Shown here one piece after another: positions 14,897 to 56,100 of a stretch of DNA of 64,000 bases. The notes under the pieces are model-generated. The model was given only the letters and a program-made list of their open reading frames with translations. It was not told where the DNA came from and made no database searches. This stretch comes from Chrysophaeum taylorii. Taxonomy: Eukaryota > Sar > Pelagophyceae > Pelagomonadales > Pelagomonadaceae. The stretch covers positions 124,001 to 188,000 of the forward strand of contig JAQMWT010000320.1 in assembly GCA_029834535.1 (NCBI GenBank), given 5' to 3'. Position 1 is the first letter of the stretch. Every line of letters begins with the position of its first letter. A program made the position numbers and the translations under genes.

Positions 14897-15720
14897 TCAG
14901 AAGACGATGTCCTCGGGCTTACCGACTCGGTTGAGGGCCGCGTAGAGCTGGCAGTGGATGGAGACGGGCTTGGTCAAGAGGACACCGACCTCGCGGAGCG
15001 TCTGGCCCTGGCTCTTGTTGATCGTCATGGCGAAGGCGGGGCCGAAAGGGAAACTGGCGTCGGCGCAGCTCGAAGGGGAGCTCGTCCTGCTTCGCGGTGA
15101 GGGTGACGCGCGGAGGGGCCTCGGCGAGACTATATTTGATCGATGATGTATCGGATACCGTTGCAGTGGCCGTGCGACGGGTCGCGATTGCGACGCAACA
15201 TCTCCGGCACGCGACTTTGCGCGCACCTCTTGTGCGGCGGCACGTCAGGGAGTTCAGAAACTCGACTGGGTAAAGAGCGAGGTGTCGTCGTTCGACCCAA
15301 CCTCGCCCTACCTCGTGGCGAGGGTGACGCGCGGGACCACTATGATGTTTTTATTCTCGCCGTTCACCCAACAGGCGAGTTGGAGGAGCCTCAGCGAGAC
15401 TATATTATTTGATCGATGACTCATCGGGCGCCGTTGCAGTGGCCGCGCGACGGGTCGCGATTGCGAAGACGTTGAGCTCGCGCTCAAAGTCGGCATGCAG
15501 TTGATTGTCCGGGAGTTGGGAAACTCGACTGGAAAGAGCGAGTCGTCGTCTTTCGACCCAACCTCGTCGGCCGAAAAAAGAAACTCCGACGCCTCGTCTC
15601 CGGGAAAGAAAAGGCCGCGGTCATGCGCGCGTTGACAGAATCGACAACAGATCGTTTCGGCGAGGATGGCGCGCTGGAAGAGCCACCGTTGGTCGTGGAA
15701 ACTGTCTGCGAGGCCCGGAA
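14897..15720 (-). pseudogene. Decayed Helitron/Pif1-type helicase fragment
   Basis: The minus strand at 14897-15060 encodes the C-terminal end of a Pif1-like helicase of the kind carried by Helitrons: AFAMTINKSQGQTL followed by VGVLLTKPV and QLYAALNRV. Farther upstream (15370-15720) the same strand carries broken pieces corresponding to the region with LFQRAIL and DNARMTTAFPGDEAS, which is clearer in a second copy at 30540-31118. A segment of about 270 bp is duplicated within the fragment: a CAGTGGCC-GCGACGGGTCGCGATTGCGA phrase recurs near 15165 and 15438. No N-terminal helicase motifs, Rep domain or intact ends are visible. It is a dead fragment of a repetitive family. Confidence 0.75.
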
Positions 15721-25800: not shown

Positions 25801-26123
25801 TGCAGAGCATCATTTAGCATGCAGTGGTATGTCACCTGGAAAACCATCCCGTCTCATCATGAACGTCTGGAAGTATTTAATTCGGGGAATGAAAGGTTAT
25901 GTTCCCAATATCCTCAGAACACGACAGGCAGCATCTAGAACTACACGAGAAAGGTTATGTGTATAGTGCTACATACCTCGGGACGCGCTAGACCATGATG
26001 ATGAGCTTGAGCACAAATATCAGAGGACTAATTGAGGACTGTGTAGAAAGGAAGAAGAAGGGTAAGGAAGAGATCACGTTCTCAACGGACGGATAAGGGG
26101 AAGAGGCAGCCGATTTCTCTGCA
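25801..26123 (-). repeat. 3' LTR of the copia element
   Basis: 323 bp; begins TGCAGAGCAT and ends TCTCTGCA on the plus strand. It is collinear with 38639-38953, with three small insertions (3, 2 and 3 nt) that account for the 8-bp length difference. Confidence 0.95.
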
Positions 26124-26133
26124 CCCCCTCGAG
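26124..26133 (-). other. Polypurine tract of the copia element
   Basis: On the minus strand CTCGAGGGGG lies immediately before the 3' LTR, the position and composition expected for the plus-strand primer of reverse transcription. Confidence 0.8.
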
Positions 26134-26265
26134 ATGTCTTAAGCGCAAGGTGCGACTATAGAACATCTCTTGAGAAAGATGATGATGAAGGAAAGAAAAA
26201 AGGAGAATACAGTCTTGATGGTCGCAGAGGTCACATACGAAGCATCAAGAGTATAGAAGGGTGTC

Positions 26266-28242
26266 TTAGGGCTTGGACTTGGTGGAGCTGAGAGTCGACT
26301 TGACGCTTTTGAACAGAGCATTACGAAACACAGGTACGACAGACAGTGTGTTAGGGCTATTTGAGGTGGTGGACATCGTTACTGGTTCGAGAGTATCGGT
26401 ATCGTCGTCGTCAGCTTCCGCTGTAAGGTGGTGAACACCAATAGCAGAATGGTGTGGTACCATGCGAAACGTGAGTGCAAGTAAAGCATTCAGTATGGAT
26501 GGCACCAGCGAGTCAAGTTGTAGGGTGTCCAGTTGGTTTTCCACGAAGTTGGACTCAGCGAACGGATCCGAGAAGATAGAAGAGTCTTCCGATTCACATG
26601 CGAACGGGATGCTCTGAATGCATGAGAGCAACTTGTCACGCAGATGAAGGAGGTGATCGTCCGGGGAGGAGTGGTTGGCGGCATATTGGTCATGAGCGGT
26701 AAGAGTTAAGCGAGACAATAGCTCTGTGATCTTGTACAGTGTTATAAGTAACACGTGCGCGTTGGCTGTAGGAGGAAAGAGCCGGTTCTCCAGGGAGGTG
26801 ATTGAAGCAATGGCAGCCTGTAGATCTGTGCGTAGAGATAGATTCTCAGCACTGAGAGTGTTGACCTTGCGAATGTGTAGTCGAAGAGCTTCCTGGAGTT
26901 GTGCGACTTGTTGACGCAAGGCATCGAATTCATCAAGCGAAGCAGAAGGCGCAGGGTGTGTCGATGGCGAAGACATCTCCAGAGTAGGGTCTGATGTGGA
27001 GAGTGAGTAGTTTAACGACGTTTCGGTCAACACATGCTGTGCAAATAGGGGGTGTTTCGCGTTTAAAAAGCGCAGAAAGTCTTGATGTTCTGCCTGAGTA
27101 TAAGTGGGGCCGAACATTACGTCCAGGAGTGACGGCGGTTTTGTATCATCTGGAGATGAAACGTAGTCGTCAAGATGTTGTGCCCACGATTGGGCAACAG
27201 TGGTAACCACAGGTTGGAATTTGGAGGGCTTGAACATAGCCTGGGCTTTGCGACTCTGTGTTCGAACAAGAGTCACAAGGAAAGTAAGATGCTCAAGGTG
27301 CATCTGTGTTATAAGCCGAAGATCCAGTGCGAATGGCCATTGTGCAGTAGGATCTGTTGTGGCCAGAGCGGATACAGATAAGACCAAGTTAACAAGTGAC
27401 GGGTGTTGTGCTAGTATACTTGTAAAAGGAGTATATAACTCCCTTGGCAAATGATAGATGCGTATGAGGGTAGCGCGTATATGACCAGCTGAGCGCGCAT
27501 CACAAGGGAAATGGAAGGAAGTATCATTGCGAGCACATACGGTAGGTTGTATAGGCACCTGATCAGTATTGTGGCAAGCAAAGCACACACTCATAGTAAT
27601 AGCGGAGATGGGGATGTGACCATTCTTCTTATGGTCGTCCGTGTTGAGGTGACTCAGCACTTCGGTGGGGAGTTCACGAGGTGTTTGTGCCTTGGAACTG
27701 TACGTGGTCGAGACGAGGAAAGTCGGTTGTCCAAGATCATTGAGGCATTGCGTACAAAAGGACGACAAAATGAAACGTTCGCGTTTGGGGCCTCTGTAGC
27801 AGCCAATAGAAGCAATAGCAGGAGCAGCTTCCCAAGGTATAGTAATGTGTAAGCGCATGGATATGAATGTGGTCAGTTCCACGAATAATGAAAAGTCAGA
27901 AGACTCATAGACGGAGTGTAGGGCAGTGATGAGTTCCACTCGCATAAAAGAAGAGAGAAATGGGGTGACAGGGGCACGGAAGTTCTCAAGGAGAGAGATT
28001 CCTCGTTCGTACAAAGCATAGTCCATGCTGAGGCCGTCCTGGAGCGTTAGCGATTGAGGTAAGATATGTTCGGCTGGTGTCGGTGCAACAGGAGCAGCCT
28101 GTGGGGTAGCAGTAGCAGCAGTCATGGGTTGTCGCTTTTGCGACAACCTGGGAGAAGGTTCGGCCGTGGAGAGCGAGCGTGGGACTGTCCTTCGAACGAC
28201 TGGGGTGATGCCGTGGCCACGGGAGTGCCAAGAAAAGGACAT
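26266..28242 (-). CDS. Extra ORF between RNase H and 3' LTR of the copia element
   Basis: An intact frame of about 658 codons from the ATG at 28242 in the position where envelope-like or accessory ORFs sit in some LTR elements. No signal peptide or membrane segment is visible, so an envelope role is unlikely. Two Cys-x2-Cys pairs (FCTQC near residue 168 and VCFAC near 225) could form a zinc ribbon. A coiled coil with regular Leu spacing covers about 440-490 (LRQQVAQLQEALRLHIRKV and following). One SLNY motif (27008-27030) lies just before the coiled coil. It has no frameshift although RT, RNase H and the methyltransferase do. Function unknown; a second structural or chaperone protein is possible. 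Confidence 0.6.
   Translation of the reverse strand: MSFSWHSRGHGITPVVRRTVPRSLSTAEPSPRLSQKRQPMTAATATPQAAPVAPTPAEHILPQSLTLQDGLSMDYALYERGISLLENFRAPVTPFLSSFMRVELITALHSVYESSDFSLFVELTTFISMRLHITIPWEAAPAIASIGCYRGPKRERFILSSFCTQCLNDLGQPTFLVSTTYSSKAQTPRELPTEVLSHLNTDDHKKNGHIPISAITMSVCFACHNTDQVPIQPTVCARNDTSFHFPCDARSAGHIRATLIRIYHLPRELYTPFTSILAQHPSLVNLVLSVSALATTDPTAQWPFALDLRLITQMHLEHLTFLVTLVRTQSRKAQAMFKPSKFQPVVTTVAQSWAQHLDDYVSSPDDTKPPSLLDVMFGPTYTQAEHQDFLRFLNAKHPLFAQHVLTETSLNYSLSTSDPTLEMSSPSTHPAPSASLDEFDALRQQVAQLQEALRLHIRKVNTLSAENLSLRTDLQAAIASITSLENRLFPPTANAHVLLITLYKITELLSRLTLTAHDQYAANHSSPDDHLLHLRDKLLSCIQSIPFACESEDSSIFSDPFAESNFVENQLDTLQLDSLVPSILNALLALTFRMVPHHSAIGVHHLTAEADDDDTDTLEPVTMSTTSNSPNTLSVVPVFRNALFKSVKSTLSSTKSKP
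27008..27030 (-). repeat. SLNY motif copy A
   Basis: On the minus strand this encodes LTETSLNY in the frame of the ORF at 26266-28242, followed by SLSTS. Confidence 0.85.
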
Positions 28243-28298
28243 GAGCGACACTCACACGCGTACAAAAGAATTGTGGCAAAAGAAGGTAGGGCCTGGGC

Positions 28299-28320
28299 TA
28301 GTTTAACGACGTTGCGGTCA
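28299..28320 (-). repeat. SLNY motif copy B
   Basis: Minus strand encodes VTATSLN followed by a stop (TAG where TAC/TAT stands in the other copies). It sits between the RNase H end and the extra ORF, in a decayed stretch. Confidence 0.8.
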
Positions 28321-28440
28321 CTAGGGTTAGGCATCTTCAATCCTGTAAAGGCTTGTCGTCAGAGGCATGATGCATATCGAGTAGAGAATGAAAAGTGGAG
28401 AACTCAGCAGCATGTGGCTTTGTAAAACCATCAGCCACGT

Positions 28441-29155
28441 TTAGCTTGCCGGGAACATGTGGACTCGAATTTTCTGTAGCGAGATGTACTCACGGATCTT
28501 AAACCATCTGGTCGACAGTGCCTTGGATCGAGAGGATCCATCTGGGTTATTAGAGGTGTGAACAGCAGCAGCATTGTCAGACAAGAGGGGTAGGCTTCTG
28601 ATGAAGCGCATATCTTCAGCAATTGGGTTGTCATTGTCATCGAAATCAACAGGATTAGCGGTGTTCTCACCATTAACATTGTTGACGTAGTTAGAAGGTG
28701 GGGTTGACGACAAATGAGAGTTCCAACAGCAGCTTGCGTAGCCAAACAGCTTCATCAGCACAAATACTGAGGGCAATCAACTCAGCTTCGTGAGTTGAGC
28801 AGGAGACAATCGGTTGTAACTTGCTTTTCCAACCAATAAGGCAGTTGAAAAGATAGAAGACAAACCCGGTGGTAGATTTCCTATCTTCCTGTGCTAAGGA
28901 AGGGGCGTTGTCAGCGTCAACCATGGCAACTAAGGGATCAAACTGTCCAGTGGATACATCCTGCGGTTGGTAGTCAACCACAGTGGAAAGATCAATTCGA
29001 TTAGCGGAGACAGTGCGAAGGTGAGCTTCAATAGCATTACCTTTAGGATGGAACCAGAGGCGAAGTGAGCGGTTTTCCGGCTTCCTCAGGTAGCGGAGCA
29101 GGTGTTCTAGCATTTGAACGTGAACATACGTGGGGCATGCATACCACGCGAACAT
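28441..29155 (-). pseudogene. Copia RNase H domain (frameshifted)
   Basis: Two overlapping frames together make the C-terminal RNase H of a Ty1/copia polyprotein. The first (28691-29155) has VDADNAPSLAQEDRKSTTG and the diagnostic CLIGWKSKLQPIVSCSTHEAE segment followed by LRKLLLEL. The second (28441-28776) continues with LLSDNAAAVHTSNNPDGSSR and the His/Arg-rich RWFKIREYI stretch. Past 28441 a further shift leads into KLNVADGFTKPHA, the normal end of copia pol. At least two frameshifts make this copy non-functional. It degraded the RNA strand during reverse transcription. Confidence 0.88.
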
Positions 29156-29315
29156 CTGCCTAAGGCTTACGAGAAGTCAGGTCTGCAGGCCACTTGCATG
29201 AACACCAGCTTGCCAAGGAGGGTGGCAAAGTGCGAGTTCATGTACAACTCTGTTTCAGAGCTGGGAGTGCCATATTTATACTTGAAGGACGATGACATAG
29301 GATATTTATGCGGAG

Positions 29316-30230
29316 TCAGTTGCTGCAAGACAGGTGATCAGCGAAGACTTCATCGAGCTTGGCTTGCACATCCAGAGAAATGGATCCATCAGATGTGCGC
29401 CACACACGCATGCCTAGGAGGGTATGGACAGGTTCAAACTGCTCTACAGCATACCGTTTGTGAAGGGCATCCTGTAACTCAGTACGAAGAGTGTCATCAT
29501 TGGACACAATAACAATGTCGTCTACAGACAGACTGCATACGACGAACTTAGCATGTGCGGATACTCGAGCATGTAGGCAAGAAACCGAATGCAGGCGCTT
29601 GTAGCCAAGGCTACGGAAGAAGCCGTCTATCTCTTTGTTCCAAAGAGATGGCGATTGACGAAGTCCATAAAGTGACTTAAGCAGTTTTGGTAGGCGTCGG
29701 CCCTTGTACTTAGCGTCATCGGGGTCGATAAGCTTGATGCCGTCTGGTAACTGAACATAGACGTTAGCATCAATGTCAGACTGAACGAAGGCGTTCGGGA
29801 CGTCTGCGTGGTAGACAGGCACTTGCTTGTATGCTGCAATAGCCAGTAGTACCCGCATTGCGGTCATTGTGGCCATTGGGCTGAAGGTGCCAAGGAAATC
29901 GGCGCCAAGAGATGCTAGGAAGCCACGTAGCACGAGGCGAGCCTTGTGCTTAACGTATTTGCCTGCAGAGTCTGTTTTAATCTTCAGCACCATCCTGCTG
30001 TCAATAGGGCGAGAGACACCGTCGGGTAAAGAAAGTTTGAAGCAGCCAAAGCGGATAATGTCGTGGAGTTCCTTGGCGATGGCCTTGAGGTAGGCGTGCC
30101 TGTCTTCAGGCGACATACCGTGGAGGCACTTAAGTTTATATTCGTCGATGGAAACGTCCGCTTCTTGGACCTTATATTCGTCAGGACCAACAGTGGCTGG
30201 TGAATTATAGTTTAGCGACGTTGCGGTCGA
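29316..30230 (-). CDS. Copia reverse transcriptase domain
   Basis: RVT_2-type reverse transcriptase. The frame is open from the SLNY motif at 30230 through the ORF ending at 29316. It shows GCFKLSLPDGVSRPIDSRMV, KHKARLVLRGFLASLGADF, TFSPMATMTAMRVLLAIAA, VYHADVPNAFVQSDIDANVY (catalytic Asp), KLLKSLYGLRQSPSLWNKEID and LSVDDIVIVSNDD, where the usual YVDD is SVDD. It ends before the connection to RNase H, which is in a different frame. The nested Helitron fragment begins just upstream. It copies element RNA into cDNA in virus-like particles. Confidence 0.9.
   Translation of the reverse strand, partial: STATSLNYNSPATVGPDEYKVQEADVSIDEYKLKCLHGMSPEDRHAYLKAIAKELHDIIRFGCFKLSLPDGVSRPIDSRMVLKIKTDSAGKYVKHKARLVLRGFLASLGADFLGTFSPMATMTAMRVLLAIAAYKQVPVYHADVPNAFVQSDIDANVYVQLPDGIKLIDPDDAKYKGRRLPKLLKSLYGLRQSPSLWNKEIDGFFRSLGYKRLHSVSCLHARVSAHAKFVVCSLSVDDIVIVSNDDTLRTELQDALHKRYAVEQFEPVHTLLGMRVWRTSDGSISLDVQAKLDEVFADHLSCSN
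30208..30230 (-). repeat. SLNY motif copy C
   Basis: Minus strand encodes STATSLNY in frame with the reverse transcriptase, about 25 residues before the first RT-like sequence. Confidence 0.85.
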
Positions 30231-30539
30231 GGCAGTGTGCGCAACTTCGGGATAAGCGGAAACAAGTGCAGGCCAGTAAGTTCACCTAGTCCCAATCTCT
30301 AACCCCAGTAAGTTCGGCGGAAACCCACTCGTGCTCACACCCACTCACCCCACTCTCCTTTGTGCTCGTCGCTCTCACCCCCGCCAATCCAAGCTGCTTT
30401 GATCCGCACACGCCGCCCGCCTTTGAGTTTACTCTAAAAACTCCAGTAAGCTCACCTGGTCACTCATTTCACCTAGTCCCAATCTCTAACCCCAGTAAGT
30501 TCACCTGGTCCCAGTAAGTTCACCTACAGTGCGCGTGTA

Positions 30540-31118
30540 GACGCCGTGAGAGGGCTTATCGGTATTGCGCGGCACGTGTGGGGTAGGGTGGAGTCGTCGA
30601 CCCAGAAGAGGATATCCTCGCGGTTGCCGACTCGACAGAGATCCACGTAGAGCTGGAGGTGGCAGAAGACGGGCCTTGGGCAAGAGGACATCGACCTTGC
30701 GGGGCGTCTGCCCCTGGCTCTTGTTGATCGTTTGGCGTCGGCGGGGCTTAAGGGATACTGGTTGAAAGAGCCTCGGTGACACGACACAACATGATCGATG
30801 ACGTATCGGGTGCCGTTGCAGTGGCTGTGCGACGGGTCGATGTTGCGAAGACTTTAAGCTCGCGATCAAAGTCAGCATGCCGTTGGTTGTCAGGGAGTTG
30901 AAAACTCGACTGTAAAGAGCGAGGCGTCGTCTTCCGACCCAACCTAGTCGGCCGAAAAAGAACTCCGACGCCTCGTCTCCGGGAAAGGCCGTGGTCATGC
31001 GCGCGTTGTCAGCATCGACAACATCGTTTCGACGGGGCGTGAGAATGGCGCGCTGAAAGAGCCGACGCGAGTCGTGGAAATAGTCCGCGAGGTCGTTGTA
31101 GACGGCTTGGAGGATCAA
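30540..31118 (-). pseudogene. Helitron-type helicase fragment nested in the copia element
   Basis: The minus strand reads ILQAVYNDLADYFHDSRRLF, then LFQRAILTPRRNDVV and DNARMTTAFPGDEASEFF, and farther on INKSQGQTPRKVDVLLP: the C-terminal part of a Pif1-like Helitron helicase, with frameshifts. It is clearly similar at DNA level to 14897-15720, with long shared phrases such as GCCGAAAAA-GAACTCCGACGCCTCGTCTC. The exact insertion ends in the retrotransposon are unclear; similarity to the host element stops near 30231 and resumes near 31546. Confidence 0.75.
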
Positions 31119-31364
31119 TGCTTGGCTTGCGCGCCTACCTGATCCTTACCCTGACTCGGGGACGAACCCCACCCAGGCCGCCCGATCCCAGCAGGACGTC
31201 ACCCTTCGTCGCACATACGTCCGGCGGCAGCACGCATACGACCTACAGGCGGGGCCCGTCCTCTCTTCGCCTGCCCCACGACTCGGCGATGACCCCGACT
31301 AGGTCCCGCGTACTTGTCTCCGCCCGTCAGGCACATCCCTCCTACCCCACAAACCCACCCACAT

Positions 31365-31507
31365 CCCTCATAGCAGTCGCCCTTTAAAGACAAACCACCC
31401 ACATCCTTCATGCCCCACACACACACACCCCTCTTAGCAGTCGACCTTTAAAGACGAACAGACAGACACACACAACCCCCTCTTAGCAGTCGACCTTTAA
31501 AAGACAA

Positions 31508-31542
<35 letters not shown>

Positions 31543-31545
31543 TCT
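31365..31545 (+). repeat. Short tandem repeats with CAGA microsatellite
   Basis: Three imperfect units contain AGCAGTCGACCTTTAAAGAC, near 31369, 31434 and 31481, followed by a pure CAGA/CAAA run (about 31505-31541) at the boundary with the element coding sequence. Confidence 0.8.
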
Positions 31546-32155
31546 GTCGATTAGTAGTAAGGACAGCGTCAGTAGGAGGGGTAGAAGAAGCAGATTCCAG
31601 TTGAATATGGATAGTAGGGTCGGCATGTAAGACCTGGGTGATGTACTCTATAGAGACCAGAAGGTGTTCCTCCAAGTCAGACAGAGATGCGGAATTAGCG
31701 CCAAACTCGGAGGAGTTGTGATCGATAAAGCTGGTCGGCGCCAGATACGTAAGTGCATACTGTAAGGAAGAGATGCCAAAGGCAGCAGCGTGCTCAGTGA
31801 ACGCAGCTAAAGGCTGGGGAATGGGGCACGTAGGTGAGTCATCAGCAGTGAGAAAGGTTGCGGCTGGGATGCTGGATGCGCACTTAGCGTGGGCGAAGTA
31901 ACCATCGACGTGCGGGTAACGGGCAAGTAAGTCAGTGCGCAACGGGAGAAGAAGACGAGCTAACAACGCATGTTCCCCCTCTGAGCAGATAGCAGACCAG
32001 AGGATACCACCATTGATATGAAGGGCGGAGAGGGCGGGAGACTTGAACGTAAGAAAGTGGTGGCGAAGATCCCAGCGGAAATCGGCGAGTTTGCCACCAG
32101 CGGCTTTGTAACCACCAATAGTAGACGCTTGCAGCCGGGCTTGGATATTTTTCAT
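31448..32155 (-). CDS. Unknown segment of the copia pol, between integrase and RT
   Basis: An ATG-initiated frame of 235 codons whose first about 203 residues look like protein (globular, Ala/Leu-rich, two isolated Cys) and whose end runs into the CAGA repeat of the nested insertion (poly CLSV). It directly follows the integrase C-terminal Pro-rich tail. In copia elements this is the linker between integrase and reverse transcriptase, but here it is longer and shows no motif I know. Probably truncated by the nested insertion. Confidence 0.5.
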
Positions 32156-34016
32156 GGAGGTTGCCTTGCGGGTGTTAGGTTGTTTGGAACCTGGGACAAG
32201 AATGAGGTCATCTTGTGCAAAAGGTCTTTGTAAGAAGGAAGCAAGGGCGGCGGTGGCATAGAGCCAGAATCGTCGACAGGAGCGTCGGAAGAGGGAGGAG
32301 AGGCAGGAGCAGGGGACGAAGAAGGAGCTGAAGGAGGTGGAGAGTACCCCTTCTGAGGATGAAGTGTCCGTGTCCCCCGCTGAATGACATGGTCTTGGAT
32401 AGCAGCGTGGGGTGTGAGCGAGAAAGGCGCGGGAGGAGCGTGAGGCGGAAGAGCAAGTTCAGAGTCACGAGTAGGATGCTGGAGCATGTAGAGGAATTGC
32501 AGCTTGGACGAAACACGGCTTTGTCCGTTTTCAGGGTTGAGGACGACGTCGGCAATATGGTCAATACGTGGGGAGACGAGCGGGTATTGCGCGTTGGCGC
32601 AACATAGATATAAGTATTTGCGGCGGCACGGTTCCCGCACGGTTCCCACTTGTGGTGCTCGTGGGGTTCCAATAGAAGGTAGCATTCAGCGCCGAAGATC
32701 TTGAGCATGTCATGCTGGGGGGTGCTCAGTTGATTGTAGAGCAGCTGTTGCGGACTTAGGATGGCATGGTGAATGCGCTCGGGCGTGGCGTTCGGGAGAA
32801 TGTTGTAGCTTTGGATGGTATGTATTACCGCCCAGGGAAACATGATGGCTGGTTCCACGATCTTTGAGCCACGATAATGAGCATTAAGGAGAGAACGAAG
32901 GCGAGTTGAGGAGGCGGAGGCGATGAAGCCGATGGCTGACTGAACTTCAAAGCTAAAGTGGTGCATGTACGGCGGGAAAGCGATGAGCTGAATGCCTTTA
33001 TCGACGCGGTACGGGGCGGTAATGTGCTGGCTAAAATAGGGCTTGAAGGCATCAGAGAAGAGGGTGCGCATGTGCACGTTGAGTTGTGTACGACAAAAGT
33101 CATACACAAAGTCCAGAGCTTGAGTGAACTCCGTGGCGTTGGTGGTGCGTGTAAAGTACACCAAGAGAAATTTCGAGATAAGTTCTTTGAATACGATAAG
33201 ATGTGTGAAGCCTCCCCATTCGGATGGGATGGTCACATAGCCGCCGTCGCACGCCCAGACTTCGCCGGCTTTGTGAGTTTGCTCAAAAGAGGGCTTGGTC
33301 GGATTGAAGTGCTTGTGCGGGTGGCGTTTGTTATGTGCGATGCAGTCGGTGCATAAGTCGCGATACGGTAGGTCAGAGGCAGAGAAGCCAGGGCGAGCCA
33401 GTACGTTGGGGGCCTTGGCAGCGACGTTGTCGGGGCAGTGGTGCACCCGGTGGAAGCGATTGGCACGTTCTTTGGCGTTGAGGTATTCGGCAGATCCGTG
33501 TGCGAAGGACTTGCGAGGAATGGGATGAGCGGGGATATGACGTTTGCGCCGAACATCGAACTTGAGTTCGGTGTCCAAGGCAGGAGGAGGCGGTGCGTCG
33601 TCATCCTGGTGCGCAGCAGGGTCACTTGGAGGTGCATCCTCATCATCACGAGTAGCGAGAGTATCTTCGTAGGACGAAGATATATAGTTTAACGACATTT
33701 CGGTCAAGCAGTTGCTGGAAATAGACGTCATGAAGGCTTGAGCCAAAGACAAGGTATCTGTGCTGCACGTGGTGGAGGCCGGATCAAAAGTCATGAAGGT
33801 GGATACATAGGATTTCTTCATCACGGCAGCAGCATGTTGGAAGTTAGGGTCCAACATTAGAGGTTTAATATCGGCAACGAGGAGCGAAAGGTGCTTGTAC
33901 AGTGTGCTGTACGTACCGGCAGGCAGAGCATTGCTGAGCATGTCGCAGCAAAGGTCGTGGCGAAGAGACAAGAGGAAAGATTCCTGTTGTTTGGTGTGGT
34001 TGTTAGCACGAATCAA
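32152..34016 (-). CDS. Copia integrase domain
   Basis: DDE integrase inserting element cDNA into the genome. The N-terminal zinc-binding module is visible as FHRVHH followed after about 30 residues by LCTDC. The catalytic core has VWACDGGYV (Asp), RTLFSDAFKPYF (Asp) and HHFSFEVQSAIGF (Glu). The frame has no ATG at its beginning (TTG at 34016), consistent with a polyprotein. A frameshift near 32600 moves the C-terminal part to the frame 32152-32685, which reads YPLVSPRIDHIADVVLNPEN and ends in a Pro/Ser-rich tail. A SLNY motif lies about 105 residues in, before the zinc module. Confidence 0.88.
33685..33707 (-). repeat. SLNY motif copy D
   Basis: Minus strand encodes LTEMSLNY in frame, N-terminal to the integrase zinc-binding module. 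Confidence 0.85.
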
Positions 34017-34166
34017 CTCCGGTCGAGTAGGATAGCGTAATTTCCCGTTGCGAGGGTCGAGTAAGTAATGTTTGCATACCCTCGGACGGTGGGCAATGGA
34101 GCAAACATGGAGTGGATTTTAGAGCCGAGTTTGCGGTCACTTCCACGAAGATACCCTATATAGCGA

Positions 34167-35900
34167 CTATGAGATAAGTGGTGATCTTCCAGAGCAAAAT
34201 GAGAGTCCTTGTAGTCGAAAGAATTGTCGGTGGCCTTGTAGGTAAGGCAGCCAGGCATCACAAGAGAGCATCTGGACAAGAGCTTTTGTATGGCGGTGCC
34301 ATAGGTGGCAGCGGAGCCAACTTGAGGAAGGGCTTGGATTATCCACAAGTAACCCATAAACGGCTCCAAATATATAGATCTGCAAATATATAGATCTGTC
34401 TCTGTCGCGGGGGACGTTGGAGGCAGTAAACGTATACGTGCTTCCAAACGCGTCAATGGAAGCATGATATTTGGTGGCGGCGTTCTCTATGGTGAGGTTG
34501 CCGTCAGAATGGTGGCCGCCGGTTAGGAAGTAGATATTATGTGATGTTGATGAGGTTGTAAGTAGTAACCTATGTGACGGTTGGTCAGTTTCGAAAACGG
34601 TTATGTAGTAGGACACAGGAGTGGGTGAGTTAGTGTGCAATCTGGCAAACACGTTATAGAGGATGGTAAAAGCCTTAACATGCAGTGGGTTAGTTGCATG
34701 TGGCAGTGGATCCATGGAGGAGCGTTTGAAACACAGCTGATGATAAGTACACTCGAATTGAACTGAGTGCGTACGTTGCTCGTGTTCCTGTTGTGAGTGA
34801 AGGCGCAAAAATAACATATTGAGTGTTTCAAGGTCAGTCATAGTAAGCTGAACAGAACCTGTGCGAGAGTAAGGTGCAAAAGTTTTAGGAACGGGGACAT
34901 ATGGAGGATCGGGGAACACCCGGATCCAATCTTTGGCGATATGTTTGGATAGCCAAAGTCGTTTAGGAATGGCCTGTATGTCATCCACGATCTTAAAGAA
35001 GGGGCGTGGGTGGTGGATAGGCCATGACAGTATGTTGATTGGTCCAGTAGAATACCTGCGTGCGATGCAGATCCATCTTTCCCTAGATTGGTAGTCGCCA
35101 CAGAGGTAGGTCGGGAACCTGTCAACAACATCGACACAGTAATCGAGTGTGGCATGGATGAGATTGGCGACATTGATGTGGTCTTGATGACAGTACTTGT
35201 GGGGTGGTGTCATCTCAGCCAGTAGTACCTAGGGTTGGAGAAGTTTGATGACAGACAGCATGCTGTCGAAAAGAGAGTCGTCAAGCAGGCTGTGTAAGTC
35301 TTCGGTCTTATGCTGCTTTATTAGATTCCTGTTGGTGCAGGGAGGAGTGATCTCAATAATATCACAATAAAATTTGCGCCTTTCCTCTGGTGAGATTAGG
35401 TGAAGGTGGTTGATAAAGGCGGGTAAAGATTCAAATAATAATACTGTAGGAAAACGGTGGCGTAACATGCGCACAAGCGTATCATCAGACTCAACAACAA
35501 CTTTTACATTGATATTTAAGCCTAGGTCATTAGTGGCTTGAGACAGGAACGCTGGGGTTGACAAACCAGAACAGAGTAACATGACAGAGGGTTTGCGAAG
35601 ATTGGGCTCTTGTGAGAGAAACACTGGGCGAGAAAGTATTCATGTTAATGGCGGAGTGTTTTGCTGGACGACCTTGTTCTGTTTCCGAAGATTAAGAACC
35701 AAAGGGCGAATCCACGGGCGATCTGGTAAAACTCTCTTGAGGAGATAGTTGTAATATGCCAGTAGATCCCTGTTTTCGTGGTATCGCTTGAGCGGAAATG
35801 CGAGGGAGCGTAGTTCGAGTTGCTTGTCGCGAGCGATGTTGTAGGTGAGACAGGGGAGAGCAGGTAAATTAGCTGCTACGTAGTGTATGGGAATACGCAC
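34167..35900 (-). pseudogene. Cytosine-5 DNA methyltransferase domain in the retrotransposon
   Basis: One reading frame (same phase as integrase) with two internal stops, TGA at 35640-35642 and TAG at 35229-35231, carries the ordered motifs of a C5 methyltransferase. Motif I: VMLLCSGLSTPAFLSQA (about 35585). Motif II: VVVESDDTLVRMLRHRFP. Motif IV: DIIEITPPCTNRN, with the catalytic Pro-Cys at about 35337-35342. Motif V: LFDSMLSVIKLLQP. A motif VI-like VLLAEM follows the TAG. Motif VIII: GDYQSRERWICIARR (about 35090). A weak motif IX follows. Downstream, IENAATKYHASIDAFGS (about 34480) may be a degenerate copia protease site, where Asp-Ser/Thr-Gly is expected. Such enzymes methylate cytosine in DNA; retrotransposon-borne C5 methyltransferases are known from dinoflagellates and Klebsormidium. 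This copy is inactive unless stops are read through. Confidence 0.85.
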
Positions 35901-38115
35901 ATCTTTGTCTTAGCACAAGAGTCAAAAAATATAAAAAGGAAAAATGTTGGGGAACACTGTTTACCTTCATATATTTGGTTAGAAGTGCATTTTCCGAATA
36001 TGGGCAAGTAGTGGAGAGGCTGGCAGTGAAGAAATTCTCCAGAAATAACAAGTGATTTGGAATGATAATCGGTTGAACAGGTGGTGATGGTTCGTCAGCC
36101 TCATCAGCCATGCCGTGCTTTTCATCAAATGATGATAGCGAGGTCTGATCGACATCCCTTGTGGTTTCGGCTTGTGGTGGTTGGTTAATGGCTGATTGGA
36201 CCTGTGAAGATAGCGAGGACAGTAACGCTGGTGGTAAAGCGGAGATGGCAGAAGCAGTGAAGAAGTTAGGCAAAATATCGGAGGGATTACCGTGTGTGTT
36301 GGAGGCATCCTTGGTATCTGTAGTAGGAGGACTTGCCGTTGGGGTGGGAGCAGTAGCAACAGTATGATGTTGTGGCTCCACGTAGTTTAATGACTTTTCG
36401 GTCGAGGATAGATGAACGTCTACATCATAAATGATGTCTTCTGCGAACATGAGTTGTTCGTTTAGGCGAAGTAAGTCACTATTGTCCTCAGTAGATGTCG
36501 TTGACAGAATATCGGCGGATTGCAACAGAGTCTCAAATAACTTGGTGATGTTCTGTTGTAGCTGAGCCGTGATATCATTATCTGTCACATGCTTCGTAAG
36601 TTCACTACACTGCTCTTGCAGTGTATTTAAGGTGTGCTTCGTTCGGTCTAATAATTTCATGTTAGATCGAGAGGACCTGTCGAAAGTGCGAGGGTAAATT
36701 GGACGGTCATGGGACTGTCCAGCAGTTTTCTTGGTGACATAAGAATCACCAGAACGATAATACGATAGGTCGCTGCGAGAGAAAGGCTGGCGAGCATCGT
36801 TAGAGTTACGCAAGAGTCTAGCGTTAAACGTGGAGAGTGTTGCAGGTTGAGAAGAAGTAATCGACGCGAGTGTGTTTGCAGTTTGAGTCAGACTTTTGTC
36901 TGATAAATCCAGCGTGTTGGTCAGTAGTAATTTTGGCTTTGGTTGTGGTGTCAGTCCTTCGACATAGGGTTGCCAAGAAACAGGGCGTTCTAAGTGTCTT
37001 TTGTTCGACCCATTTGATACTACATTATATAAGTCTAATGCGTATTCTAAGGTATAGCTAGGGTTGGTAGGATGACACAATCGTTCAGCGTCTGGCACAG
37101 GCCGAGATGAAGATCGAGTTTCATACATATAACACCAATCTACCCAACCACGATCGCAACGATTGTTGCTGGTATTATCGGCATAATGCCGATGTATCTC
37201 TTCATAAATTTTTCTACAAAGAGTGCCAAAGTCGAATTGAAGGTCAGTCTCTTCCTGGTTAAGTTGGTAAGAGAGTTGCCTAAATGCTAGGACAGCTTCG
37301 ATAAATACATGGACATACCAGTTAGGATTATAAACAACAGAGTTAAATTGCTGTTTCAAATAGGACACATCAGTAGTCGTAACAGACTCGTAGTGACTAA
37401 AGGCGATGAGCATAATAGCTCGAGCCTTGTTGGGTAAATAACTTTTGTTGTATACCTCATTGATGGCGGGCCAGGCCGCAAGTGCCGGTTTTCCAACACT
37501 TTCAAGATTGAAGTAAGTATGCAAGAATGTAGCATACGTGTTCTGATAAGTGTGCCAGTCAGCAGCAGTTAACGAAAACATGGTAACAGGGGCACGAACA
37601 CGGGTGTCAAAAGCTAATGCTTTCGGGTGCGCGCGATTTAAGATTCGTTCCTCTTCTAAGAAACGAACATTGATTTCAGGGCGTAATGCCTTGACTTCAT
37701 TGTCGTAACAGACAGTAGCTAGCTGAGCTACTTCTGCGTCAGGTAAGTTGGGGAAAGCTTCATTGGTGAAGTGCCATTCCTGATACTCAGGGGGCAATTC
37801 ATCAACAGCTAAACGGAGATCAGCAGCCCTATCGGTCTTCCATTCCAGGAAAACGCGATCGAGAATTTGATTCCGGAGGATCTCGTAGTCCTTGCATGAC
37901 CGAGTGTATGCTTCGTACGAGTCGTACTCGAGGAAGGCATCGGCATGACTGGACCGTAATAACTGCTTGATATGTTTAATTTGCAAGGATACCTTGCGGG
38001 TCTGAAGCTGAAATCGATTTCCTTCGTTGAGAAACTCAACTACAGGAGCTTCGAGCTTCAATATGTCCGCACCTGTGATCGCCTTGGGTGCGGCTCGTGC
38101 TGCGTGTTCTGCCAT
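35869..38115 (-). CDS. Gag-like polyprotein of the copia element
   Basis: An intact frame of about 748 codons from the ATG at 38115 (the frame is open to 38205). It is the first ORF after the primer site, as expected for Gag. The N-terminal 330 residues are helical and acidic, with aromatic-rich phrases such as WHTYQNTYATFLHTYF, resembling a capsid domain. The middle is Ser/Thr-rich. A helical segment at about 500-590 (LNTLQEQCSELTKHV and following) may be a coiled coil. It ends in a Pro/Thr tract after a SLNY motif (36383-36405). No CCHC zinc knuckle is seen. It would package element RNA into virus-like particles. It is in a different phase from the methyltransferase/integrase frame, so a frameshift or re-initiation would be needed for pol. 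Confidence 0.72.
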   Translation of the reverse strand: MAEHAARAAPKAITGADILKLEAPVVEFLNEGNRFQLQTRKVSLQIKHIKQLLRSSHADAFLEYDSYEAYTRSCKDYEILRNQILDRVFLEWKTDRAADLRLAVDELPPEYQEWHFTNEAFPNLPDAEVAQLATVCYDNEVKALRPEINVRFLEEERILNRAHPKALAFDTRVRAPVTMFSLTAADWHTYQNTYATFLHTYFNLESVGKPALAAWPAINEVYNKSYLPNKARAIMLIAFSHYESVTTTDVSYLKQQFNSVVYNPNWYVHVFIEAVLAFRQLSYQLNQEETDLQFDFGTLCRKIYEEIHRHYADNTSNNRCDRGWVDWCYMYETRSSSRPVPDAERLCHPTNPSYTLEYALDLYNVVSNGSNKRHLERPVSWQPYVEGLTPQPKPKLLLTNTLDLSDKSLTQTANTLASITSSQPATLSTFNARLLRNSNDARQPFSRSDLSYYRSGDSYVTKKTAGQSHDRPIYPRTFDRSSRSNMKLLDRTKHTLNTLQEQCSELTKHVTDNDITAQLQQNITKLFETLLQSADILSTTSTEDNSDLLRLNEQLMFAEDIIYDVDVHLSSTEKSLNYVEPQHHTVATAPTPTASPPTTDTKDASNTHGNPSDILPNFFTASAISALPPALLSSLSSQVQSAINQPPQAETTRDVDQTSLSSFDEKHGMADEADEPSPPVQPIIIPNHLLFLENFFTASLSTTCPYSENALLTKYMKVNSVPQHFSFLYFLTLVLRQRCAYSHTLRSS
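36383..36405 (-). repeat. SLNY motif copy E
   Basis: Minus strand encodes STEKSLNY in the Gag frame, followed by VEPQHH and a Pro/Thr tract. Confidence 0.85.
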
Positions 38116-38622
38116 AGCAGTTGACGGGGAACCTGTGGGTTCAGTCACGCAGTTGACACTGTCTAGACATTCTAAGGGGGTCTGTCTATCGGTGTCTATG
38201 TACACTCATGCGTTATCGATGGAAAAAATGTCTATTTGACAACTGTGCAAGCTGTGAGTCCAGAGTAGTGTCGCTAAGCGTAGTCACTCATGGCAGCTGG
38301 TTATTTTGGTGCTCTCAAGGAGCTTGGTAGGTGCATTGCCATGGAATGTACGAGTGGACGTACCCAAAATATTCCATAACATGTGTGCAAGAGTACAGGT
38401 TAGCCAACTTACACGCACATCAACATTAACATGACAATACGATACTATGAACAGGTGCACACAAAGTTACACGATCACGTGTGCAAAATATGCTATATAC
38501 AGCCCAATGGTAATGGCGTTATATTGACAAGCGTGTTTGCGTGGCGAGGCTGGACCGGCGCGGTAACAGTCCAAAACCCATAGGTTACGTGCACGCGTTA
38601 ACACATGGTTTCTCAGGGACCC

Positions 38623-38638
38623 GCCTGGGCCCATAACC
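38623..38638 (-). other. Half-tRNA primer-binding site
   Basis: Directly inside the 5' LTR the minus strand reads GGTTATGGGCCCAGGC. Its complement, CTGGGCCCATAACC, is the anticodon stem-loop of eukaryotic initiator tRNA-Met, so the primer is the 5' half of that tRNA cleaved in the anticodon loop, as in Drosophila copia and yeast Ty5. Confidence 0.88.
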
Positions 38639-38953
38639 TGCAGAGCATTTAGCATGCAGTGGTAAGTCACCTGGGAAACCATCCCGTCTCATCATGAACG
38701 TCTGGAAGTATTTAATTCGGGGAATGAAAGGTTATGTTCCCTATATCCTCAGAACACGACAGGCGGCATCTAGAACTACACGAGAAAGGTTAAGTGTATA
38801 GTGCTACATACCTCGGGACGCGCTAGACCATGATGATGAGCTTGAGCACAAATCAGAGGACTAATTGACTGTGTAGAAAGGAAGAAGAAGGGTAAGGAAG
38901 AGATCACGTTCTCAACGGACGGATAAGGGTAAGAGGCAGCAGATTTCTCTGCA
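38639..38953 (-). repeat. 5' LTR of the copia element
   Basis: 315 bp, begins TGCAGAGCAT and ends TCTCTGCA on the plus strand. It carries the promoter of the element on the minus strand. About 98% identical to 25801-26123 apart from three small indels. Confidence 0.95.
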
Positions 38954-39388
38954 CTATGTATGTATGTATGTATCCTGGCGGGATGCGGCCGGCCCCTAGA
39001 ATTTACTACTAAACTCAAACTACCTGCTACTACTACCGACTCGCACCAAAACTCGGACGTCGACTCTCCTCTAACCATTATACCTACGTCCGGTGTATCT
39101 CGACTGGCGTCACGCTGCGTGCTTTGGCGCCAGAAGAATCAATGACTCCACTCAATTTACTATACCGTCCGGTGCGTTAACTGGCGCAAAGCACGCTGAG
39201 CTCGTTGCCGCAAAAATGGATGCACGTCTGAAACCGCACGTTATCCTCTCTTGCCTCTTCATTGTACGTATCAAAAAAAGACCATGACTACGATGGCAAC
39301 TGCCACTACTTTTCCTCGTGTTAGCTCCCCAAAGTATACATTGCTTCTTGGTTTGTTTTGCTCTTTACTAGACTTTAGTACTAAAACA
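38954..39388. other. Spacer between copia and hAT elements
   Basis: Starts with a TATG tetranucleotide run (38955-38972). The phrases TATACCTACGTCCGGTG and TATACCGTCCGGTGCG (about 39080 and 39160), each followed by TTGGCGCC or CTGGCGCAAAG-like sequence, suggest another small decayed repeat. No gene is recognised. Confidence 0.45.
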
Positions 39389-53100: not shown

Positions 53101-56100
53101 GTTCGTTGTTGGAAGTTGACTCCAAATTTGTGCGTAAGAGCGACCCGTCGTCTGGTTGTTCCTCAAAGAGCGTCCACAAAAAGTCAACTTGACGCTGGGA
53201 GTCAACTCTCCCGTCACATGCTGTGGCGAATCCCTCAGCTTCTATTGAGAGAGCTTCTCTTCGGCTCGGCAAGACAACAATGGCGCCGCCGACGATCACG
53301 AGCGACGGGATCTGGTCATACGTCAGTCGAATCTCCAAGCTGGAAGTCGTGGTAACCTAAGGGGACAGATACGAAGTCAGAGAGACGTGAGAGACAACAA
53401 CATTGGTGGCGAACCTGGAGAAAGTTTGTAAGACTCAGCGTCAGTTCAAGCCGGGTGCTGTTCGCAATGACTTTTTTGAGCTCAGTGTTTGACATCTGGA
53501 AGAAGGATCTCCCTTGAGAGCGCTCGACTGCGGTCGTCGTGCTCTCCGTGTCTGTACTCCAGAGAAAAATCATCTCTCGACCAGCACTGCCCGTTGATTG
53601 ATCAGCCCGCAGGGTAAAATTCTCGCAGACAGATGTCGACGTCGGACCTTGGAAGACTACGCGCGGAACGATTGCATCAGCGGATGCTTCCGCCCGAACG
53701 GTCGTCCCGTTCGCCGGTACGTAGCACTCACACCTGTGCATCAAACCAGTCCATCAGCCCACCTCGTGGTGGTGTAAATTCGAGGAATTCGTTTGAATTC
53801 CCCGACATGATGAGCTCACCTTACGTCGTTCACACACTCCGCTTCCACCACACCATCCAGGAGAGTGACATTACTTTCCGGTTTGAAGCCCAGTGCATCG
53901 CTGACGATGGCATCCACAGTCGTCGAATTCACCCACACGCAAGTCGTCATTCTGACGTCTGCGAATTCAACCAGCTCACTGCAGGCGAAGTCAAGGCCAG
54001 CGACACGTCCAGCACGATTCGTCGGCGCGTCAAAGGTGAGGTCCAACCGTGCGCCGCTTGAGCTGAAAAGGGCTGAGATAAGCTTTGGTGGTTCAGGCAA
54101 ATCAAGTTCTGTGCAAGGAACTTGGGTCAGTGACAACGACGGCAGGTTGTTGTTTGTCGGCACGCGAGATGGGTGCCCTGTTTTCTTGAAAAACAGCGTT
54201 GGCGAGCGGGTTGGCGAACTGCTCGGCCACGTCGTAGCTGAGCTCAGTCTAAAGGCCGGTTGCAATGTCGGACTTTGTATGTCCTGGAACAGGACCACTT
54301 CGAGCCTCGTTTCCTCTGCGATGCTAGCCAACGAGGCGGCCTCGTCGACCGTCGCCTCACCTAACGGCGATGTGGAATTGGCCGCTTTGACGACTGCTCG
54401 CAGTGCATCTTGGAGAGGACATGTTGATGTATTGGCCGAGAACGTGACAGCTTTCGAGAGCCTTGCTTTGACGTGAGCCGTCAGAGCAGCGCCGTCGTTA
54501 TAAGCGACGGACTCGAAGAAGAGAACAAAAGAGACTTCGATCGAACTATTCACTTGCTGCAATCGACGGAATCGCACGAGGCGACGAGTGGTGCGATCTT
54601 CCGCTTCAACATCGGTCACATAATCGGCGCCTTCTATTAAGCCGACAACTGCCATGGAAAATAGTTCATCTTCGTCTTCGTCAAAATCAGCAGTTGATAT
54701 GCTTGCGAGGACAATCATAGACTTAATACCCAACGTCACATTGGTCACTGATGAGCTAGGTTCCGGCGATTCAGTGGGCGGTGCCGATGGTGCGGCCAAT
54801 TTTTTGGCTTGCAGTGAAGTGTAGCTAGTTGGCAACAACACGCTCGACAGCAAGCTTGGTTGCGATGCTAGCGAATCAGTCGGATTTATTACAGTGGGAG
54901 CCATGGTAGGGTCGTTTGTGCTCATCAATGTTGGATGCAACGATGACTCGTGGTAGGTGGGTAACCAGGTGTTTGGAACAACTGCTGGCACCTCTAGTGA
55001 TGTGCTCGACGGTCGCGTGGTCGGAACAGGCGAGGGGGTGAGCTCCGAAGCTGTTGGCACGCTGGATAAGACACCATTCATTGGAACACTCGTGACTGTT
55101 CCCGTCGGCCGCGATGTCAGCGTGCTTGTTTCTCCATATGTTGATGCCGCGGACGGGAAAATCGTTGGCTCAAATGTCGGAGCCATCAACGGATAGGGGG
55201 TCGGCACCCACGAGAGCTGAAGAGCTGGCTCGTATGACAAGTCGGGATTGGATGGAGCAGCAACAGGACGTGCGGACGGTTGTCCGCTGCTTGAACTTAC
55301 AGATGGGCTCGGAGATGTGCTCCGAGAAAATGAAATACTCGAAGGAATTAGGGTGCTTGCGGTGGGAATCCTCGAAGGCACTATAGTGTTTGGATCTGTT
55401 CCGCTGCCGCCTCTGCCAGATGTCGATGGGTGCGTCGATGGGTGCGTCTGAGGTGAGATAAGCAAGCTCGGCAGTGTTGACGGCGTAAAACTCGCCAGCA
55501 CTGCAACGGGGGTAAATGTTGTCACACGCGCTGTTGGCATTAGGCCTAATCCAAAAAGTGAGGGCGTTGTCGTCACACGGACGGTGGTTGGATGAGCCAC
55601 TGGCAATTGGGTTGGCGAATCGACGGGGCAAGGGGTCGGAACGCTCGAGATTTCACCGACTGGAGGCGTGGATGATGGAGTCTGACCTTGGGAGGGCGAC
55701 GGTGATGGCCGACCTGTCTGAGATGAGCTCGGCGTCTGCGATGGAATACTCGTGGTAATCATCGACGGAATGCGCACGCGTTCACCATTTGCGGATGGTG
55801 TCGCTGATGGTGGTGCCGTTGGATACGGGAGTGGCGAGGGCGACAGCGACGGATAAAATGTGGGACTCGAGGTTGGCGACTGTGACGAAATAATTGTCGG
55901 ATTGATCGACGGAACGCGCTGGCCTTCGCCTAATCGTAGTGCTGTTGGACTTTGACTCAAAACACGTGACAGCGACGGATAAGGTGTTGGAATGGAGGTT
56001 GGCTGCTGCGACGGAATCTTTGTTGGAGTAATAGAAGGGACTCGCAAAATTCCAACAGATGGTAGTGATGTTGGCCAAAGAGATGGTGCGGATAACAACG

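Follow-up and report, generated by a model that had tools for sequence, protein, structure and literature searches.

A putative C5 DNA methyltransferase in the Pol region of Ty1/copia retrotransposons of the pelagophyte Chrysophaeum taylorii

Results

A copia element with a candidate methyltransferase in Pol

In a 64,000-nucleotide stretch of Chrysophaeum taylorii contig JAQMWT010000320.1 (positions 124,001 to 188,000; hereafter the window), we found a 13.15-kb copia long terminal repeat (LTR) retrotransposon, at 25801-38954, whose Pol region holds a candidate C5 DNA methyltransferase (DNMT). The element and, unless stated otherwise, all its features lie on the minus strand. It is recognised by its LTR pair, a reverse transcriptase (RT) match to RVT_2 (1.1e-42) and a weak rve match, is co-linear with four further genomic copies (L009, L010, L013 and L047), and belongs to what we call family A. 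Read from right to left, it has a Gag frame, the remains of a protease, an in-frame UGA at the Gag-protease/DNMT boundary (35640-35642), the DNMT domain (33900-35639), an integrase and the RT, after which comes a further open reading frame, ORF3. The Gag frame occupies 35872-38205, with a frameshift immediately ahead of the protease DSCA motif. The integrase core (33030-33275, in frame 32211-34118) matches rve at 0.003 and SH3_retrovirus at 0.0056, both under the Pfam cut-offs, and the RT (29349-30032) lies within 29319-30281. The order protease, integrase, RT was read off the open frames, the protease being recognised by eye; an RVT_2-type RT is also present in a second family, B (1.6e-38). 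Frame 35900-34167, to which the initial annotation had assigned a methyltransferase between Gag and integrase, thus sits in the DNMT domain between Gag-protease and integrase of a copia element.

The same annotation called the element complete. It is not, because 319 bases are missing at 35910/35911, directly past the DSCA motif (in comparison with L013, whose Gag-protease frame runs uninterrupted for 960 amino acids), the DNMT domain carries two frameshifts, and an insertion of about 1.3 kb (30264-31563, no strand assigned), missing at this place in L009, L010 and L013, splits pol. The window copy is therefore a dead element. Its LTRs are the 5' one at 38639-38954 and the 3' one at 25801-26124 (termini TGCAGAG..CTCTGCA); the identity of about 98% first given for them has to be corrected to 309 of 324 aligned columns, with gaps making up 8 columns. 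When checked for a target-site duplication, the flanking 5-mers (CTATT and CTATG) agreed at four of five positions.

The motifs, whose names we assigned by eye and which we take to be those of C5 methyltransferases, follow one another along the domain. They begin with motif I (LLCSGLSTPAF, 35547-35579, from alignment A1), a motif II-like VVESDD (35481-35498, by eye), motif IV (EITPPC, 35337-35354) with the catalytic Cys, motif VI (LLAEMTPP, 35202-35225), whose Glu would be that of ENV, and motif VIII (GDYQSRERW, 35073-35099). The Cys, the Glu and both Arg of motif VIII are each present in 17 of 17 family A copies. Motifs I, II-like, IV and VIII are located in frame 35900-34167 as first proposed, with invariant catalytic residues. 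After a long segment past motif VIII come a motif IX-like LRYPTRPEL (34014-34040), which aligns with families B and C, and a motif X-like LSNALP (33921-33938), whose N, A and P are kept in 14 of 14 copies having sequence there (3 of the 17 have none). In the window copy these two, which the initial annotation did not list, stand in another frame because of the two frameshifts. Both candidates, again named by eye, are conserved across the three families (alignments A1 and A5), and the Pfam matches of the copies stop before them.

Copies, families and selection

The genome examined is the 70.8-Mb C. taylorii assembly from which the window comes. Its rbcL is 93% identical to that of Pelagococcus subviridis, the one match bearing a species name among the 120 listed, and other listed matches go up to 97%, so that a pelagophyte-like ochrophyte, and hence a stramenopile, is the likely host. 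A 136-amino-acid piece with motifs I-IV of family A has at least 150 matches in it, at 88-100% identity, a lower bound since 150 of 777 candidates were scored. Many of these copies have long open frames, up to 1691 amino acids, which bears out the earlier expectation that intact relatives exist. Pfam DNA_methylase gave 57 genome matches over the cut-off. We retrieved 20 of them as loci, of which 18 come from copia family B and two look like host genes. The family B DNMT as query returned at least 78 matches, with 66 of 808 candidates scored, and one family B copy has a 1952-amino-acid pol frame with the DNMT, a weak rve and RVT_2. To avoid a bias towards DNMT-carrying elements, we also picked three elements (L049, L051 and L052) through their RT match, and all three carry the domain. 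L052 belongs to family A. L049 and L051 represent a third family, C; between C and A the DNMTs are 42-56% identical, depending on the part, and L049 begins at motif VIII. L052 (G000 C319) has very many frameshifts and is either old or affected by indel errors of the assembly; such errors may account for some of the frameshifts in this genome.

Purifying selection was gauged from differences shared by at least two copies (5 to 23 copies by region); most such differences arose while the lineages were active. For the family A DNMT, omega on these shared differences is 0.08 for motifs I-VIII, 0.19 for the middle and 0.13 for motifs IX-X, next to 0.09 for Gag-protease, 0.04 for integrase, 0.08 for RT and 0.23 for the stretch ahead of RT. 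The three parts of the family B DNMT are alike (0.18, 0.18 and 0.24), with 0.18 for the protease part, 0.04 for integrase and 0.02 for RT. Single-copy differences, mostly post-insertion, give 0.46-0.57 for the A DNMT and 0.50-0.67 for the B DNMT. Shared differences being largely synonymous, the DNMT is kept by purifying selection.

A conserved junction ahead of the DNMT

In family A the Gag-protease frame closes with UGA and the DNMT frame begins at the next codon, in the same frame. Among the genome sites having the flanking pattern, 125 of 129 read TGA. The fetched copies in which the site is alignable agree (15 of 16 TGA, one TGC; L010 is not alignable), and in these 16 the preceding codon is ACA, ACC or ACT, always Thr. 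The codon after the UGA is variable, CTA being one common form, and UGA-CUA is a readthrough context. Family C likewise has TGA, in the one copy that reaches the junction. Family B instead has a -1 frame overlap between gag and pol (for example at L039 3580-3650). Of 25 aligned rows, among which three repeat one and the same copy, 22 have GCTTTTTCG adjoining the gag stop on its upstream side, and five (L021, L025, L026, L028 and L031) lack TGATG. Given the UGA of A and of the one C copy and the -1 overlap of B, the DNMT stands in all three families just past a junction that requires recoding, together with the Pol enzymes.

This changes how the two in-frame stops first reported for the window copy are to be read. 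The TAG at 35229-35231 is indeed a private defect (one of 17 copies), whereas the UGA is found family-wide and is probably a shared, programmed recoding site rather than decay. Termination and reinitiation at the UGA instead of readthrough was considered less likely, since an ATG follows it in some haplotypes only. A search for RNA structure 3' of the UGA gave 24 predicted pairs, none of them with two-sided change in the 8 sequences compared.

Is the domain a C5 methyltransferase?

The family A copies (17 of 17) and family B copies (23 of 23) all retain the Pro-Cys of motif IV, the Glu of motif VI, the Arg of motif VIII and the Glu that follows motif I, and by eye the catalytic Pro-Cys, Glu and Arg are also present in the family C copy L051. 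Family B matches PF00145 with 37.1 bits, above the cut-off of 22, and is significant against phage methyltransferases. The predicted core of family A has the methyltransferase Rossmann fold, with C5 methyltransferases as its nearest solved structures. Family A alone does not pass the Pfam cut-off; what carries its assignment is the kinship with family B, together with the fold prediction and the conservation of the catalytic residues. The class (DNMT3 as opposed to DNMT1, 2, 5 or 6) could not be assigned from sequence or fold, DNMT1, DNMT2, DNMT3 and DNMT5 not being separated beyond about 2 Z in the fold search, and A, B and the known DNMTs are too diverged for a tree.

Several observations weigh against this assignment and against an activity on DNA. 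The Pfam DNA_methylase search that the initial annotation had put forward as its check gave no match, at E up to 1, in three pieces of the window copy. Among six family A copies scanned, five stayed below the cut-off for PF00145 (best 17.3 bits), and the scan found no match in the family A copy L017. A profile of A and C without B matched no methyltransferase of the PDB, and one of B only had a single such match, at 0.074. From the A1 profile search we used the rows up to about E 0.1, since beyond that value DNMTs are interspersed with Rieske proteins and antibody chains, which are unrelated. Whole-model AlphaFold2 confidence is low (40.4 for A and 29.0 for B, the latter model not being usable), and the input alignment of the family A model contained family B rows. 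Motif IV reads PCT rather than PCQ in A and C, and motif VI EM rather than EN. The mutation spectrum belongs here as well: C>T singletons per C site-copy amount to 54/8977 at CpG and 182/34224 elsewhere in family A (ratio 1.13), and to 70/9563 and 236/28219 in family B (ratio 0.88). As CpG C>T change is barely raised in A and not in B, there is no sign of heavy CpG methylation in old copies.

Other aspects of CpG content point in no single direction. Relative to transversions, C>T changes in family A show a mild excess at CpG (54:24, as against 182:169 elsewhere). The CpG observed/expected ratio is 0.91 in the window element and 1.29-1.38 in the window flanks, and the lower value of the element may reflect composition. 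Taken as a sign of methylation, CpG decay is ambiguous.

Family C did not reach the PF00145 cut-off in the Pfam scan. The segment between motifs VIII and IX was also considered as a 2OG-Fe(II) dioxygenase, after an H-x-D..H pattern noted by eye in family B, and this was rejected since the Asp is not conserved in A and C; three pieces of the segment had no Pfam match at E up to 10, and the model has no confidence there.

One capture or two

Families A and B share 20% identity over DNMT motifs I-VIII (about 20-26% across the DNMT), 27% over integrase and 38% over RT, and A and C 56%, 58% and 65% over motifs I-VIII, integrase and RT, respectively. One may therefore ask whether A/C and B each acquired a DNMT in separate events at one position of Pol. 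The low A-B identity would fit this, as would the finding that a profile of the A and C middle segment scores family B no better than shuffles. On the other side, the DNMT occupies the same place in Pol in A and B, a single alignment spans motif I to X, and the spacings are similar (in residues, for A and B respectively: 221 and 228 from the protease motif to motif I, 544 and 509 from I to X, 160 and 139 from X to the integrase HHCC). Compared pairwise, the middle segments of A/C and B lie 4.6 standard deviations over shuffles. An hhalign comparison of alignments A2 and A3 gave a probability of 1.5% (Neff 1.1), yet the two are co-linear. The DNMT may also simply have diverged along with integrase and RT, because those are very diverged too. 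We therefore regard two independent captures as rather unlikely, and a single capture with fast divergence appears likelier from these comparisons.

Other features of the window and of the copies

ORF3 (26269-28251, 661 amino acids), in the interval from RT to the 3' LTR, is coiled-coil-like and open in the window copy. Its omega is 0.41 against L047 and 0.25 against L049, and its Pfam matches are weak and coiled-coil-like only. Parts of the insertion at 30264-31563 match window 14966-15649 (81-93%, in short blocks), so that another repeat family is present. Long degenerate direct repeats, often spaced by 216, 84 or 72 bases, fill 55698-62555 and are probably a repetitive coding region. A 222-base direct duplication (8047-8268 and 8329-8550) is 97% identical, with starts 282 bases apart. 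Outside the window, a gypsy-like integrase fragment (L038 3-1088, plus strand; Integrase_p58_C and SH3_Tf2-1, both below cut-off) lies directly upstream of a family B fragment, and the two are probably nested elements. As for the host-like genes, L019 (C634) is a full-length DNMT, DNMT2-like by eye, and L020/L048 (G000 C621:10500-20400) combines DNMT and SNF2 and is DNMT5-like.

Discussion

Domain order, catalytic residues, the predicted core fold of family A, purifying selection and the conserved junction all support a Pol-borne DNMT. We consider it reasonably probable that a Ty1/copia lineage carries a full-length C5 DNMT in Pol which, through recoding, is packaged and methylates cDNA or the DNA of the new insertion site. 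In such a scheme the junction (UGA in A and in one C copy, -1 overlap in B) would be bypassed by recoding and the DNMT would be produced as part of a Gag-Pro-Pol fusion, which would carry it into the particle with integrase and RT. The packaged enzyme would then methylate the element cDNA, or DNA at the new insertion, before or at integration. The likeliest pay-off would be that new cDNA resembles resident methylated host DNA; as a second-ranked one, the element might attenuate its own expression. Methylation of the element's own cDNA is the likely predicted activity, and these elements may be able to place methylation marks on their own copies or on the host genome. We would extend this only tentatively to the view that the DNMT is an ancient core domain of a whole copia clade in pelagophytes, captured once before A, B and C, made only via recoding and packaged with integrase and RT, with every new insertion arriving methylated.

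Other explanations have to be weighed against a packaged enzyme acting on DNA. An enzyme with this fold could act on RNA, either the element RNA or the tRNA primer, as DNMT2 and DNMT6 do, and aid reverse transcription or packaging. The flat CpG spectrum (not raised in B, hardly in A) and a fold search in which DNMT2 hardly stands apart from DNMT1, DNMT3 and DNMT5 would suit such a substrate. Furthermore, de Mendoza 2018 (PMC5890265) proposes RNA as a possible target of SymbioLINE-Dnmt, which gave no DNA methylation in yeast. We nevertheless judge an RNA substrate unlikely.

We find it more improbable still that the fold has been retained for something other than catalysis, as a DNA- or RNA-binding module, as a spacer separating protease from integrase or as a trap for host proteins. 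The divergence of family A, large enough to miss the Pfam cut-off, and the loss, in A and C, of the glutamine from motif IV and the asparagine from motif VI would be in line with it, but none of the 40 copies scored deviates at the catalytic Cys, the Glu or the Arg of motif VIII, and in the family A DNMT constraint is strongest over motifs I-VIII, though the parts of B are alike. That chance motifs in a copia spacer imitate a methyltransferase, as the lack of Pfam matches in the window pieces might suggest, is in our view already refuted: a copy number of at least 150, catalytic residues that do not vary, an omega of 0.08 and the fold match speak against it, as does the significance of family B in Pfam and against phage methyltransferases.

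DNMTs in retrotransposons are already known. PMC5890265 describes them from two lineages and three element classes (LINE, DIRS and Gypsy), and reports Symbiodinium Copia elements without any DNMT domain. As in the elements of de Mendoza 2018, the DNMT described here lies within the element reading frame, is multi-copy and evolves under purifying selection. KnitGypsy-Dnmt3 of Klebsormidium nitens is, in the same paper, an LTR retrotransposon with the DNMT inside Pol, as here; however, it is a Gypsy element of a charophyte with a Dnmt3-related enzyme, whereas ours is an RVT_2 copia with a DNMT of no assignable class that follows either a UGA or overlapping frames. In Symbiodinium, SymbioDIRS-Dnmt3 and SymbioLINE-Dnmt also reach high copy number according to that paper, but are DIRS and LINE elements rather than LTR copia. 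The DNMT of SymbioDIRS-Dnmt3 sits in Pol and is reported there as able to methylate CG, and de Mendoza et al. likewise argue for cDNA methylation before or at integration. One clause of PMC12344493, citing de Mendoza 2018, attributes DNMT3 to streptophyte and dinoflagellate elements of the 'LTR Copia and DIRS' kinds. It names Copia with DNMT3, although the cited work describes LINE, DIRS and Gypsy; the section concerned describes no pelagophyte element. The host DNMT5 (DNMT plus SNF2; candidate L048) is a C5 methyltransferase too, but is encoded by a host gene outside any element and has an ATPase domain.

Tca2 is a copia-type element with its protease in pol. It offers a precedent for the junction, since in Candida albicans an in-frame UGA stands between its gag and pol and has to be bypassed for pol expression, as stated in the abstract of PMC2194720, which mentions no DNMT; in our elements the protease lies upstream of the UGA, with Gag.

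Searches of a protein library (with A, and with A plus B, as queries) and of viral contigs gave no relative at the thresholds used, the coverage of known retrotransposon DNMTs by these libraries being unchecked. Passages of open-licence PMC full text, including PMC9998398, PMC12477816 and PMC3145265, contained no copia DNMT element of a pelagophyte or other stramenopile. As far as the literature searched goes, a Copia DNMT lineage in a stramenopile is therefore new.

A third lineage and a fourth element class, with three diverged families and more than 100 copies in 70.8 Mb, would show that DNMT uptake by retroelements recurs and lasts, and would then not be a mere dinoflagellate oddity. With a small genome and a DNMT5-like gene in the host, what the element gains from its DNMT becomes directly testable, and the conserved UGA ahead of the domain provides a testable point of dosage control.
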